A stretch of 64,000 nucleotides of DNA from Candidatus Rokuibacteriota bacterium (GTDB taxonomy: Bacteria; Methylomirabilota; Methylomirabilia; Rokubacteriales; CSP1-6): positions 248,001 to 312,000 of the forward strand of contig QHSX01000038.1 of NCBI GenBank assembly GCA_003221695.1. The letters are read 5' to 3'. Under the pieces are notes generated by a model. The model saw nothing but the letters and a program-made list of their open reading frames with translations, was not told the origin of the DNA and ran no database searches. A program made the translations under genes and the position numbers. Shown here piece after piece: positions 6,930 through 21,848 of the stretch; position 1 is the first letter of the stretch, and every line of letters begins with the position of its first letter.

Positions 6930-8159
6930 TCAGGCGATCTCGAACGCGAGGCGCGCGTGGGCGCTGCGGAGCGCCTGCTCGACCTCCTCCGGCCCCTCGC
7001 CGCGCGCGAAGATGAAGCCGAGGTACTGCCAGCCCTCGGGCAGGGGGAGCAGGTCCTGACCTGCGTGAGCGGTGATCGCGATCTCCTCGACGCCGGCCAC
7101 GGCCTCCGCCGCGTTCTGACCGCGCACGGCCACGAGCCGCCCGGCGCGCGGGATCGGGATCATCATGACGCCAGCCGCGCGTCGCTCGCGGTCGAACGAG
7201 TCGATCTTCCAGCCGAGCGCGTGGCGCAGGATCAGCTCCTCGAGCGTCATGCCGGTCCCGAACCGGAGGGTGCGGGAGCAGAGGCCCCCGATCGAGCGGG
7301 CGGCGACCTCGATGACCCAGGGGCCCGCGTCGTTCACCCGGAGCTCGGCGTGGATGGGCCCCTCGGTGAGCCCGAGCGCGGCGCACGCGCGCAGCGTGAC
7401 CTCCGCGATGCGCGCCTGCGTCTCGGCGCGGAGGCGCGAGGGCGTCACATAAATCGTCTCCTCGAAGAAAGGCCCGTCGAGCGGGTCGGGCTTGTCGAAG
7501 AGGGCGAGGGTCTGGAGGCCGCCCGCCGTGAGCAGGCCTTCGAGCGCGACCTCCCGTCCGGGAACGAACTCCTCCACCAGGAGCGCTGCCGCAAGATCGC
7601 CGCTCACGGCGACGTCGTCGCGCGCGAGGATGGCCGCGATCCGCCGGAACGCGGCGACGAAGGCGTCGGGGTCGTCGGCGCGGATCACGCCACGACTCGC
7701 CGAGAGCGCCAGGGGCTTCAGCACGCACGGGTACGCGACCTCGCGCGCGACGCGCGTCGGGTTTTCCGTGAGGGCGACGCGGCGGAAACGCGGCGCCGGG
7801 ACGCCGGCGGCCTGGAGCCGGCGGCGCATCTCGTCCTTGTTCCTGGCGGCGGAGGCGGCGGCGACGGGGTTCGCGCGGAGGCCGAGGCGCCCGGCGACCG
7901 CGGCGGCGACGACGGTGGTGAGATCGTCCACGGCGACGACCGCGTCGATCGGCCGGCGGCCGGCGAAGCGCGCGACGGTCTCCGCGGCGCCGGCGGGGTC
8001 GGCGAAGTCGAGGGTGATTAGATTTCCGGGCGCGCTCGCCTCGAGGGTGCTGGGGCGTTCGGAGGCGCAGACCAGGTCGACACCGAGCTTGGTGGCGGCG
8101 TCGACGAACGCCTGCGTGCGGTACGTCGTGGTCGGCAGGAGCAAGAGGAGTCGCGCCAT
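6930..8159 (-). CDS. ATP-grasp carboxylate-amine ligase family protein
   Basis: A 409-residue ATP-grasp enzyme. The N-terminal Rossmann-like lobe (1-100) is followed by 'NKDEMRRRLQAAGVPAPRF' (~108-126), the ATP-binding lysine region 'YPCVLKPLALSASRGV' (~143-158), 'LLVEEFVPGREVALEG' (~195-210), and the metal-binding segment 'GPIHAELRVNDAGPWVIEVAAR' (~275-300). The last ~80 residues resemble the C-terminal domain of L-amino-acid ligases and carnosine synthase relatives. It should join a carboxylate to an amine with ATP, but substrates cannot be inferred. It is separated from the NifU-like gene on the same strand by a strong hairpin. Confidence 0.85.
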   Translation of the reverse strand: MARLLLLLPTTTYRTQAFVDAATKLGVDLVCASERPSTLEASAPGNLITLDFADPAGAAETVARFAGRRPIDAVVAVDDLTTVVAAAVAGRLGLRANPVAAASAARNKDEMRRRLQAAGVPAPRFRRVALTENPTRVAREVAYPCVLKPLALSASRGVIRADDPDAFVAAFRRIAAILARDDVAVSGDLAAALLVEEFVPGREVALEGLLTAGGLQTLALFDKPDPLDGPFFEETIYVTPSRLRAETQARIAEVTLRACAALGLTEGPIHAELRVNDAGPWVIEVAARSIGGLCSRTLRFGTGMTLEELILRHALGWKIDSFDRERRAAGVMMIPIPRAGRLVAVRGQNAAEAVAGVEEIAITAHAGQDLLPLPEGWQYLGFIFARGEGPEEVEQALRSAHARLAFEIA

Positions 8160-8217: not shown

Positions 8218-8499
8218 CTAGGCTTTACCCGGCGTGTAGTAGGGGTTCGCGCCCGCGGCGTGGTCGGTCGTGTCCAGGACCTCGACGACCTCGGGGAGCT
8301 CTTCCTTGATGAGCCGCTCGATGCCGGCCTTCAGGGTGACGTCGGCGGCGCCGCACCCCTGGCACCCGCCGCCCATCTGGAGGTAGACCCGGTTGTCCTG
8401 GACGTCGATCAGCTCGACGTAACCGCCGTGGCCGGCAACCGCCGGGTTGATCGTGGTGTCGATCAACTCCTGGACCCTGGTCTTCAGATCGTCGCTCAT
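8218..8499 (-). CDS. NifU C-terminal-domain iron-sulfur scaffold protein
   Basis: A 93-residue protein consisting of a single NifU-like domain. 'INPAVAGHGGYVELIDV' leads to the cluster-binding motif 'MGGGCQGCGAADVTLKAGI', with a CxxC pair (~Cys45, Cys48). Such stand-alone NifU/NfuA-type domains carry and deliver Fe-S clusters. It starts 11 bp after the read-through stop of the radical SAM gene and uses a Shine-Dalgarno (AGAGGTG) in that gap, so the two are probably co-transcribed. A cluster donor next to a radical SAM [4Fe-4S] protein makes functional sense. Confidence 0.93.
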   Translation of the reverse strand: MSDDLKTRVQELIDTTINPAVAGHGGYVELIDVQDNRVYLQMGGGCQGCGAADVTLKAGIERLIKEELPEVVEVLDTTDHAAGANPYYTPGKA

Positions 8500-8510
8500 G
8501 GCTGCACCTC

Positions 8511-9932
8511 TCAGACGGCTACTGTACCCGAAATCCCCTTGAGGGCCAACTGGCCCTCGGTCGGCTCCGCTCAGCAGAACCACGGCTCGGTCAGCCGTGG
8601 CGGGCGCGTCCGCTCGGGCGGCAGGACCACGTCCGGGCGCGGGGACGCGCCGGCGGCAGCGTCGGCGAGCCCGCGGATCCGGTTGAACGTGGCCGCCGCG
8701 TCCTCGCGCGCGTCGACCGCACGGGCGACCAGCGCGGCGACGTCGGTGGCGAGGCGCTCCATCCGCGGGTCGGGATGGGTCCAGCGATAGTAGAACGCAT
8801 CCTCGACGAGCGGCCCCAGGAACGGGCGCATCGCCGGGCTCTCGAGGAGGAGCGAGCCCGGCGGGACGAGGAGGCGGATCGAGAACTGGACGGGATCGAT
8901 GGCGTCGATCAGCGCGTGGGCCTCGACGAAGTGGAGAAGCTCCCGGTAGTCGTCGAGCGTCGTCCACGGCGTGAACGGCACCCACGTGGGGCGCAGCGCG
9001 ATCCCCGCGGCACGCACCGCGTGGAGCGCCGCGAGGATATCGGCGCGCGTGTGGCCCTTGGCGAGGTTGGCCAGCACCGTGTCGGAGAGCGACTCGGCGG
9101 CGGTGATGATGAAGGCGCAGCCGAGGTCCGCGAGTTCCGGGAGGCGCGCCCGCTGCTTCAGGAGGTGTTCGACCTTGGCGGTGAAGTCGAACGTCACGGA
9201 CGGGAGCTCAGCGTGGAGCGCGCGCGCGACGGCGAGCGCGTGGCCCGGGCCGTTCAGGAAGTCGGGATCGCCGAAGGTGATGTGCGCCGCCCCCGCGTCG
9301 ACCTGCTGGCGAATGTCCGCGAGCACGACGTCGGGCGGCACGACGAAGAAGCGCCCGCCGTAGACGGGCGGGATCGGGCAGTGACGGCACAGGTGCTTGC
9401 ACCCACGGCTGGCCTCGACGTAGCCTGCGAGCTCGAGCCGCCCGTCCCTCTCGACGTGCGCGTACTTCTTCAGCGACGGCAGCTGCGTCCGGCTCGGCAC
9501 AGCAAACTCGAGCTTCTTGAGAATGGTGCCGGGGGCCGGGAGGCTCCTCCGCTCGGTCTCGAGCGTCTGGGCGAGCGCGACCAAGGCGTCTTCGACCTCG
9601 CCCGAGAGGACAGAGCCGGCCGCGTGCTTCAGCAGATACTCGGCGTTGAGGCTCGCGTAGAGGCCGTAGAAGGCGATGTGGCAGGTCGGGTTCACGGCCC
9701 GCGCGCGCTCGGCGAAGGCGACGCCGAGGCGGAGCGCGGTGTGCATCGGGACGGAGATCGCGACCAGGCGCGCCCCGCGCACCTTGTCGGCGTCGAACGG
9801 CTCGACGGAGACGTCCAGGAGCGCGGGGCGGTATCCCCGGCGCTCGAGAAACGCCGCGGGCCAGGCGACGGCCAGCGGCTGGTGGCCGAGCTCGTAGCAG
9901 GCGACGAGGAGGATCGCCCCGGCTTCTTTCAC
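8511..9932 (-). CDS. Radical SAM protein with Cys-Sec-Ala-Glu-Pro tail (predicted selenoprotein)
   Basis: The apparent stop at 8571-8573 (TGA) is read here as selenocysteine. Without read-through the protein is 453 residues and ends 'LTEPWFC'. With it, the tail reads C-Sec-AEPTEGQLALKGISGTVAV and ends at a second TGA (8511-8513), giving 473 residues with Sec454. The N-terminal ~130 residues form a B12-binding-like Rossmann domain. The radical SAM [4Fe-4S] motif is 'CKHLCRHC' (Cys178, Cys182, Cys185; CxxxCxxC), and a TIM-barrel domain follows. I recall an annotated family named for a CUAEP or CCAEP tail on radical SAM proteins, which this fits exactly. A SECIS-like hairpin lies just after the UGA. 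The start is GTG. The substrate is unknown; the NifU-like gene downstream is the likely operon partner. Confidence 0.88.
8541..8558 (-). promoter_or_regulatory. Bacterial SECIS-like hairpin downstream of UGA-Sec codon
   Basis: On the coding (minus) strand, GAGGGCC and GGCCCTC form a perfect 7-bp stem around the 4-nt loop AGTT. The stem starts 12 nt after the UGA and the loop starts 19 nt after it. The second loop base is G. Known bacterial SECIS elements have a small apical loop about 16-37 nt after the UGA with a G among its first two bases, so all three criteria are met. It would recruit SelB with Sec-tRNA. Confidence 0.75.
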
Positions 9933-10012: not shown

Positions 10013-10204
10013 ATGCCCGTCAAGATCACCGCCCGTCCCAACGGCCCGTACCTGGTCGAGGGCGACTGCGAAGTCTACGACCCCTCCGGGAAGAAGCTCG
10101 ACACGACCGGCAAGCCGAAGTTCGCCCTCTGCCGCTGCGGCCACTCGAGCACGAAGCCGTTCTGCGACGGCACGCACAACAAGGTCGGCTTCCAGGCGTC
10201 CTAG
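10013..10204 (+). CDS. CDGSH-type iron-sulfur protein
   Basis: A 63-residue protein. The [2Fe-2S] motif is 'CRCGHSSTKPFCDGTHNKVGF', which is C-x-C-x2-(S/T)-x3-P-x-C-D-G-x-H, the single CDGSH domain of short bacterial mitoNEET-like proteins. The N-terminal 'MPVKITARPNGPYLVEGD' forms the beta-cap typical of the family. AGGAGG at 9998-10003 sits nine bases before the ATG and fixes the start. It is probably a redox or Fe-S transfer protein in the cytoplasm. It is divergent from the radical SAM gene, so this neighbourhood holds three Fe-S proteins in a row. Confidence 0.93.
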   Translation: MPVKITARPNGPYLVEGDCEVYDPSGKKLDTTGKPKFALCRCGHSSTKPFCDGTHNKVGFQAS

Positions 10205-19974: not shown

Positions 19975-20769
19975 ATGCTCCACTTCACGATAGACGGCTT
20001 CCAGGGGTTCCGCTCGCGCTTCGACCACGTCCCGCTGATCCAGGAGGTGCTCGAGGAGGTCCCGACCCAGCTCGGGCTCAGGCCCGTGATGCCGGCGTTC
20101 GTCCTCCCCTACTACAACGGGGTCGTGCCTGAGGACTGTGGGGTCAGCGCGTTCGTCTTCCTGGCGGGCGGTCACTTCACGCTCCACACCTTCTCGTTCC
20201 GGGAGGCGTACTTCGCCGACCTCGTGGCGCCGGGGCCCTTCGACGCCGGGCGCCTCCGGGGCGTCCTCGAGGCGGTCTTCCCGTGCGCGATCACGGCGAT
20301 CCAGACGGTGGACCGCCAGGACCTCAAGGACACCGAGCCGGACATGGACGCCGACTTCGGGCCCCACCTCTTCCTCAACATCGACGCCTACCAGGGGCCG
20401 CAGAGCATGGACACGCTCTTCGCGCTCTTCGACCGGCTGCCACGCTCGATCGGCATGACGCCGATCATGCGCCCCTACGTGATCCGCGACCGCGCCGCCG
20501 ACGGGCGCGGGGTTCTCTCCGCCATGACGATGATCGCGGAGAGCCACGTGAGCCTCCACGTCTTTCCCGACGAAGAGCGCGCCTACTTCGACATCTTCTC
20601 GTGCCGCTTCTTCGACCGGGACCGCGTCGTCCCCCAGCTCAAGGCGTGCTTCCCGGGCGGCACCGTCCAGGAGGCGCTGATCGCCCGGGGGAGCCGGTAC
20701 CGATTCCTGCGCACCGAGCGCGAGCGCGAGCACGCCAAGTCGCGCGCGTGGCTCCACCCGGAGGGGTGA
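19975..20769 (+). CDS. Duplicated S-adenosylmethionine decarboxylase (SpeD)-like pyruvoyl enzyme
   Basis: A 264-residue protein made of two SpeD-type alpha/beta halves. The C-terminal half keeps every catalytic residue in 'LSAMTMIAESHVSLHVFPDE' and 'FDIFSC': Ser182, the Glu189-Ser190 self-cleavage/pyruvoyl site, His195 and Cys210 (equivalent to Thermotoga Ser55, Glu62-Ser63, His68, Cys83). The N-terminal half has 'SAFVFLAGGHFTLH', with Gly65-Gly66 in place of Glu-Ser and no Cys, so it cannot self-process. Bacterial SpeD is normally a single half of ~120-140 residues. The adjacent DHS-like gene begins 5 bp after the stop. The reaction is likely decarboxylation of AdoMet or, if neofunctionalised, of arginine or ornithine. 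Confidence 0.85.
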   Translation: MLHFTIDGFQGFRSRFDHVPLIQEVLEEVPTQLGLRPVMPAFVLPYYNGVVPEDCGVSAFVFLAGGHFTLHTFSFREAYFADLVAPGPFDAGRLRGVLEAVFPCAITAIQTVDRQDLKDTEPDMDADFGPHLFLNIDAYQGPQSMDTLFALFDRLPRSIGMTPIMRPYVIRDRAADGRGVLSAMTMIAESHVSLHVFPDEERAYFDIFSCRFFDRDRVVPQLKACFPGGTVQEALIARGSRYRFLRTEREREHAKSRAWLHPEG

Positions 20770-20774
20770 CACCC

Positions 20775-21848
20775 ATGTCCCAACGCGCCAGATACGACGA
20801 TCCCCGCCTCGCCCGCGAGCCGATGACCCTGGTCGAGGACGGCCCGCGCTCCGTCCTCGCCCTGCTCACCCGGATGCGCGCCTCCGCCTTCCAGGGACGC
20901 CAGCTCGGGGAAGCGTTCGAGACGTGGAAGCGTATGATCGAGGGACCGAGCCTCATCTGCCTGGGCTACGCGGCGTCGCTGTCGAGCGCGGGGCTCTGGC
21001 CGCTCGTGACGTGGCTCATCGAGCGCGGGTACGTCGACGTCCTCGCCTCGACCTCGGCCAACATCACCGAAGACCTCCTCGAGCAACTGGACGGCAACCG
21101 CCTCTACCGCGTCAGCGCGGAGGACGTCGACGACGCGGATCTGTGGAGGGCGGGCTACTACCGCTTCTACGATCACATCGTCTCCAAGGCCCGGTACGAC
21201 GAGCTGGAGACGCGCGTGCTGAGCGCGTTCATCGACGACCTGGCCGAGCGCTGGCGGAAGCCGGCGATCCCGACGGTGCGGCTCCTCCACGAGCTGGGCC
21301 TCTGGCTCGAGGAGAAAGGATTCCGGCGCTCGATCCTCGCGACGGCCGCGCGCCGCCAGGTCCCGGTGTTCTCCTGCGGGCTGCCCGACGGGCCGATCGG
21401 CGAGGCGTACGACAAGGCCACCCGCGCCGAGCAGGCCCCGATCGTCGACTTCTTCCGCGACTACAAGATCGCCACGGACGTCATGGACGCGGCGATCACC
21501 GGAGGCCGCGGGACCTCGGTGATCTTCCTCGGCGGCGGCGTGCCCAAGGACTTTCTCCAGATCACGGCGACGAGCGTCTCGTCGCGACACGGCAATGCGG
21601 AGGCCAAGCCCCACGTCGCCGCGATCCAGATCACCACGGACAACACCGTCTACGGCGGCCTGGGCGGCGCCGCGCTCGCCACCGAGTGCATCTCGTGGGG
21701 CAAGGAGGCGAAGGGCGGCCCGAATGTCATGTGCTTCGCGGACGTGACGATCGCGCTACCGCTGATCTGCCAGGGGCTCCTCGAGCACTTCGGTCCGACT
21801 CACCGGCGCCGGGAACCGCGGCCGCTCAACCTCGCGGAGGTCTTCTAG
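20775..21848 (+). CDS. Deoxyhypusine synthase-like (probable homospermidine-type) aminobutyltransferase
   Basis: A 357-residue DHS-family protein. Motifs matching eukaryotic DHS are 'ASTSANITEDLLEQL' (~91-105), 'VFSCGLPDGPIGEAY' (~198-212), 'FLGGGVPKDFLQ' (~251-262), 'CISWGKEAK' with the catalytic Lys310, and 'ADVTIALPLICQGLL' (~322-336). The eukaryotic His-His pair after GGGVxK is replaced by Asp-Phe. Bacteria lack eIF5A, and such DHS-like enzymes instead make homospermidine or related polyamines by NAD-dependent aminobutyl transfer. It forms a two-gene unit with the SpeD-like gene. The substrate is inferred, not seen. Confidence 0.88.
   Translation: MSQRARYDDPRLAREPMTLVEDGPRSVLALLTRMRASAFQGRQLGEAFETWKRMIEGPSLICLGYAASLSSAGLWPLVTWLIERGYVDVLASTSANITEDLLEQLDGNRLYRVSAEDVDDADLWRAGYYRFYDHIVSKARYDELETRVLSAFIDDLAERWRKPAIPTVRLLHELGLWLEEKGFRRSILATAARRQVPVFSCGLPDGPIGEAYDKATRAEQAPIVDFFRDYKIATDVMDAAITGGRGTSVIFLGGGVPKDFLQITATSVSSRHGNAEAKPHVAAIQITTDNTVYGGLGGAALATECISWGKEAKGGPNVMCFADVTIALPLICQGLLEHFGPTHRRREPRPLNLAEVF

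Follow-up and report, generated by a model that had tools for sequence, protein, structure and literature searches.

On the minus strand of the window, the 64-kb stretch of DNA that was analysed as a whole, a radical SAM (rSAM) reading frame meets an in-frame TGA directly after a cysteine codon. This raises the question of whether the TGA terminates the protein or is read as selenocysteine (Sec), and which pathway the enzyme would then serve. The original prediction proposed a selenoprotein and referred to a radical SAM family named for a CUAEP/CCAEP tail. Such a family does exist as the NCBIfam model NF040546, “CUAEP/CCAEP-tail radical SAM (seleno)protein”, so that this kind of protein is already known under that very name. 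The model names the tail but no function. NF040546 is missing from an inventory, published in 2026, that covers 119 families of prokaryotic selenoproteins (PMC13188914), and in the literature searched no relevant paper was found for CUAEP, CCAEP, NF040546 or RCCLKC. In the same literature, the function of the family, its partnership with a ligase and its association with Nfu-type and YggX proteins appear to be undescribed; the ligase partner and the relationship to the arsinothricin biosynthesis enzyme ArsL are additions to the original prediction. The explanation that we favor as a whole, with a probability of roughly 0.88, combines a selenoprotein, a pathway shared with an amino acid ligase and a proposed mechanism that employs the Cys-Sec pair.

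The radical SAM gene and its read-through tail

The features of the gene are as follows.

8511..9932, minus strand: predicted CUAEP-tail radical SAM selenoprotein gene (NF040546, 680.2 bits; Pfam Radical_SAM and B12-binding)
9573..9911, minus strand: N-terminal Rossmann domain of the B12-binding type, residues 8-120 (Pfam PF02310, 33.4 bits; AlphaFold2 model)
9378..9401, minus strand: radical SAM motif C178-x3-C182-x2-C185 (CKHLCRHC), invariant in 81 homologues
8571..8573, minus strand: UGA codon predicted to be read as Sec, residue 454 (UGA or Cys in 135/135 homologous tails; Sec machinery in the genome)
8514..8570, minus strand: predicted read-through C-terminal tail AEPTEGQLALKGISGTVAV (E, P and Q invariant and E and P codons synonymous among 48 distinct UGA forms)
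8541..8558, minus strand: bacterial SECIS-like hairpin GAGGGCC-AGUU-GGCCCUC (pairing and compensatory changes in UGA forms)

Translation starts from a GTG at 9932, and the first in-frame TGA (8573-8571) directly follows ...RPPRLTEPWFC. With read-through to the second TGA (8513-8511), the product comprises 473 residues including Sec454 and ends in UAEPTEGQLALKGISGTVAV. The second TGA is separated from the ATG at 8499 by 11 bp (8510-8500), the 5' end of which is a Shine-Dalgarno-like GAGGTG. The coordinates originally given for the apparent stop after LTEPWFC, for the tail and for the 11-bp gap were correct. The score against NF040546 exceeds the cut-off of 500 bits, and the alignment covers positions 1-467 of the 468-position profile and extends to residue 463 of the protein, past the UGA. 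This full-length match, together with the CX3CX2C motif and the C-U-A-E-P tail, identifies the protein as a member of the family. Other radical SAM proteins with predicted Sec, namely TIGR04167, with its GxxU motif, and TrsS NF045646 (PMC13188914), belong to separate families, neither of which is among the NCBIfam matches of the protein. In the AlphaFold2 model, which was built from a 49-sequence alignment, the mean pLDDT is 92.8 and falls after approximately residue 455; the nearest solved folds are those of AprD4, OxsB, TsrM, MiaB and MgmA.

The first set of homologues consisted of 81 sequences (80 loci and the window) from Rokubacteria, Methylomirabilota, Nitrospirota, Nitrospinota, Planctomycetota, Gemmatimonadota, Acidobacteriota, Ignavibacteriota, Chloroflexota and other phyla, with UGA at the site of residue 454 in 57 and TGC or TGT in 24. 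When the Chloroflexota sample is included, the 135 homologous tails carry UGA in 102 cases, a Cys codon in 33 and nothing else. The C453-U454 pair is conserved, and among 48 distinct UGA-form homologues, the residues behind the UGA include E, P and Q in 48/48 each and A in 46/48, with synonymous variation of the E and P codons. Contrary to the outcome that the original prediction had named as damaging to it, the homologues do not all end at the cysteine before the UGA: their alignment shows that a UAEP or CAEP tail is retained, with Cys codons taking the place of the UGA. Judging from these sequences, the open tail is not a product of chance, because the alignment to the NF040546 profile continues across the UGA and the residues behind it are conserved while their codons vary synonymously. 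When the tail is left out of the tree, at least three changes between the Sec and Cys states are required. In the phylum of the window, the rSAM gene is present in 46 of the 63 genomes, with exactly one in-frame TGA in each among the matches listed.

The expectation that gene callers truncate the gene is borne out even in the cultured organism Thermomicrobium roseum, where the RefSeq CDS of the family (L098:7950-9386, NC_011961.1, WP_012643191.1) stops at the UGA in the annotation. With read-through, its tail would be UAEPLEDPSGPVASQV, and a hairpin lies behind the UGA. A search confined to the T. roseum plasmid record found no selB there; close relatives with an rSAM protein about 80% identical do have selB.

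The hairpin and the selenocysteine machinery

The hairpin in the window follows the UGA after a spacer of 12 nt and has a G at loop position 2. Among homologues, Chloroflexota included, a full set of the five loop-proximal pairs is seen in 76 of 90 distinct UGA forms and in none of the 32 Cys forms. The first or second base of the loop is a G in all 90 UGA forms. On average, 6.52 of the 7 pairs are formed in UGA forms, compared with 4.37 in shuffled sequences (maximum 4.79), whereas the same region of the Cys forms yields 4.17 of 7, compared with 3.86 in shuffled sequences (maximum 4.35), the slack in this test coming from the choice of the best register. Compensatory exchanges in the stem of the UGA forms occur among C-G, U-A, G-C and A-U pairs. 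The Gln codon that falls in the loop is CAG in 57/57 UGA forms, whereas the Cys forms have CAG in 11/24 and CAA in 13/24. In some lineages, the 3' arm of the hairpin is offset by a single base and the peptide reads QFGPL instead of QLAL, a shift that a constraint acting on the RNA structure would be expected to produce. A search of the 64-kb window against Rfam produced no match at the gathering score.

The source genome (4.6 Mb, rated 100% complete) contains all four genes on which the original prediction depended: selC, encoding tRNA-Sec (69.8 bits, Rfam gathering score 47), selB (373 bits, cut-off 242), selD (337 bits, cut-off 125) and, between selC and selB, a selA-like ORF that was recognized from its translation, without a profile score. 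The selD gene (G000:C35:113035-113976, L206) is itself UGA-coded, with the sequence TSYATCAG-U-ASK, and gene callers would cut it short as well. In a sample drawn mostly from outside Chloroflexota, selB was detected in 23 of 26 UGA-form genomes versus 2 of 23 Cys-form genomes (Fisher p 1e-8). Three UGA-form genomes are exceptions; one of them, G049, shows partial selB matches, including one at a contig edge. Two Cys-form Nitrospirota genomes, G003 and G006 (L051 and L058), carry a strong selB at about 490 bits and thus are Sec users with Cys at this site. In Chloroflexota, selB has no discriminating power because it is present in 9/10 Cys-form genomes as well as in 44/45 UGA-form genomes.

That the UGA is an ordinary stop, with the protein ending at Cys453 and the conserved stretch behind it being an untranslated element, is how standard gene callers, and the annotation of T. 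roseum likewise, treat the gene, and a C-terminal Cys alone could be functional. This reading is nevertheless very improbable: the 33 homologues with a plain Cys codon translate straight into the AEPTxxQ tail, synonymous changes occur in the codons of invariant residues behind the UGA, the hairpin is found only where the codon is UGA, and the distribution of selB in the mixed-phyla sample follows that of the UGA form. Even less credence can be given to a local or genome-wide code change by which UGA would specify Trp or another residue, given that the same gene terminates at a TGA used as a stop, that the genome encodes the full Sec machinery and that Cys is the alternative in every homologue without UGA. 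The rSAM gene of the NF040546 family is therefore almost certainly that of a selenoprotein, with Sec454 predicted to be decoded by SelA, SelB and tRNA-Sec under the direction of the downstream hairpin.

The probable ligase partner and the relationship to ArsL

Two further genes follow on the same strand.

8218..8499, minus strand: NifU-domain (Nfu-type) iron-sulfur carrier protein, 93 aa (PF01106, 87 bits)
6930..8159, minus strand: predicted ATP-grasp L-amino-acid ligase, 409 aa (PF13535, PF18603; nearest structure BL00235; co-occurrence)

The order of these genes in Rokubacteria is rSAM, NifU-domain protein, ligase. The ligase contains the domains PF13535 (ATP-grasp_4, 118 bits) and PF18603 (LAL_C2, 64 bits), and its best sequence match in the PDB is the L-amino-acid ligase BL00235 (141 bits), with a weaker match to BacD (78 bits). 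Against the models of BacD and other ligases, it scores far below the cut-offs and instead belongs to an orthologous group of its own, which is mostly 50-64% identical across phyla and follows the CUAEP gene. BL00235 prefers methionine or leucine as the first residue.

In 58 of 141 loci, which come from several phyla, the ligase gene lies close to the rSAM gene, at varied distances and in both orientations; in most of the Chloroflexota loci where it adjoins the rSAM gene, the identity is 44-57%. When the two genes lie apart, the ligase gene is nonetheless present in 44 of 46 carriers of the rSAM gene, in exactly one copy that is mostly 50-64% identical, versus 0 of 20 Chloroflexota genomes without the rSAM gene (p 6e-15). 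In the phylum of the window (63 genomes), the ligase was detected in 45 of 46 rSAM carriers versus 3 of 17 non-carriers. The non-carriers that served as controls were not matched to the carriers for kinship, and therefore shared ancestry may explain part of the co-occurrence. Because the gene order changes across loci, a functional tie is indicated, and the rSAM enzyme and the ligase encoded two genes downstream very probably act in one pathway. With a dedicated ligase accompanying it in nearly all genomes, the orphan selenoprotein becomes part of a two-enzyme pathway open to expression and assay. One orthologue of the ligase (G305:C168:43893-45095) itself contains a single in-frame TGA.

The recurring theme of the neighborhoods is iron-sulfur supply or protection. 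An Nfu-type protein is encoded next to the rSAM or the ligase gene in many loci, and DUF169 and IscA/HesB proteins are frequently encoded near the rSAM gene. The Nfu-type protein between the rSAM enzyme and the ligase probably serves to keep the [4Fe-4S] cluster of the enzyme loaded, which is the likeliest of its possible roles. Where the ligase gene is isolated (40 loci, L166-L205), an Nfu-type protein is encoded beside it in 17/40, in most phyla, and in 10/40, from Chloroflexota, YggX and a methionyl-tRNA-formyltransferase-like protein are found.

The nearest characterized relative of the rSAM protein, with 33-38% identity, is ArsL (NF040542), which is also its second-best NCBIfam model (307.1 bits, below the cut-off of 450). 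ArsL has been proposed to move the 3-amino-3-carboxypropyl group of SAM to As(III) (PMC8552651). The two proteins have in common the Rossmann and radical SAM core, and ArsL likewise ends in vicinal cysteines, but its tail is RCCLKC, whereas the CUAEP protein has a linker of about 50 residues and then CUAEPT. Searches by sequence and by fold found no solved ArsL structure. An ATP-grasp gene is included in the ArsL operons on three plasmids, and its product was considered as a direct homologue of the partner ligase; at 23-25% identity, however, the two are no closer to each other than to generic ATP-grasps. Queries for arsR, aquaporin and other genes of the ArsL cluster were negative in 1.7 Mb of neighborhoods, save for weak generic methyltransferase matches. 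The context thus does not support arsenic as the substrate, because none of the queried ArsL-cluster genes is nearby beyond these weak matches and the ATP-grasps are not orthologous.

The proposed mechanism and its alternatives

In the proposed mechanism, the rSAM enzyme would cleave SAM reductively at the CX3CX2C cluster, and the Cys453-Sec454 pair, which occupies a position comparable to that of the RCCLKC tail in ArsL, may bind or reduce a soft (thiophilic) co-substrate close to the active site; the ligase would then join the resulting modified methionine-like amino acid to another amino acid. As a best guess, the two enzymes together would yield a modified, peptide-like amino acid. Among individual reactions, the transfer of the 3-amino-3-carboxypropyl group of SAM is the most likely, an assignment that is nonetheless tentative and, taken by itself, rather doubtful; followed by formation of a peptide bond by the ligase, such a transfer would make the most economical scheme. 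Still more speculative is the proposal of an undescribed pathway, spread over many phyla, in which the Cys-Sec pair would offer a soft atom (a chalcogen, metalloid or metal) to a 3-amino-3-carboxypropyl radical derived from SAM, with the methionine-like amino acid then being built into a small peptide. If this holds, the product could be a new low-molecular-weight thiol or selenol, a metal ligand or an organometalloid. The role of a C-terminal Cys-Sec pair in an ArsL-related radical SAM enzyme becomes testable. The original prediction suggested that the pair may act as a mobile reductant or as a metal or substrate ligand, which would be plausible.

The strongest competitor accepts the Sec protein and has the Cys-Sec pair act as a resolving reductant, by thiol/selenol exchange or by supplying electrons to the cluster or a radical intermediate, without being a ligand of a transferred atom, the chemistry being based on the 5'-deoxyadenosyl radical as in AprD4 and OxsB. 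Redox activity is common among the vicinal Cys-Sec pairs of other selenoproteins, the solved structures closest in fold are 5'-deoxyadenosyl enzymes, and the Nfu, IscA/HesB and YggX neighbors point to iron-sulfur upkeep; yet no thioredoxin-like partner is consistently linked, and the closest relative by sequence, ArsL at 307 bits, is proposed to use the 3-amino-3-carboxypropyl radical (PMC8552651). Taken together, the chances of the reductant role fall somewhat short of even. A much smaller share of belief goes to an organoarsenical enzyme, that is, an ArsL-type former of As-C bonds whose arsinothricin-like amino acid would be turned into a peptide by the ligase. Besides the identity to ArsL and the C-terminal vicinal cysteines, this would fit with the ATP-grasp genes of the three ArsL operons and with the ArsC-family selenoprotein gene that adjoins the rSAM gene in Nitrospinota, but the score of the protein is below the ArsL cut-off, the RCCLKC tail is missing, and neither orthology of the ATP-grasps nor an ArsL-like neighborhood beyond the weak methyltransferase matches was found.

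Several other genes were observed at these loci. DUF169 (COG2043) proteins are encoded near the CUAEP gene in 23 loci (L042-L084 and others; e.g. L074:4183-4917), and a literature search on DUF169 yielded nothing informative. In several Nitrospirota, the genes of a ZnuA-type metal-binding protein and an adjoining ABC ATPase are located upstream of the CUAEP gene (L062:1024-1977, L044, L051, L057, L058, L065). In the Nitrospinota loci L083, L077, L089 and L069, the gene of an ArsC-family (seleno)protein, NF041106, is located on the opposite strand, a short way downstream of the rSAM gene; the gene in L083 (6436-6770) contains an in-frame UGA (YYHRSG-U-KTC), which places two predicted selenoprotein genes side by side. 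In the window, a small CDGSH-type iron-sulfur protein gene, recognized by eye (10013-10204, plus strand), is divergent from the rSAM gene, and a similarly placed gene is present in a few Rokubacteria. Farther away on the plus strand (19975-21848), an S-adenosylmethionine-decarboxylase-like gene is followed by a deoxyhypusine-synthase-like gene, both recognized by eye in the ORF list.
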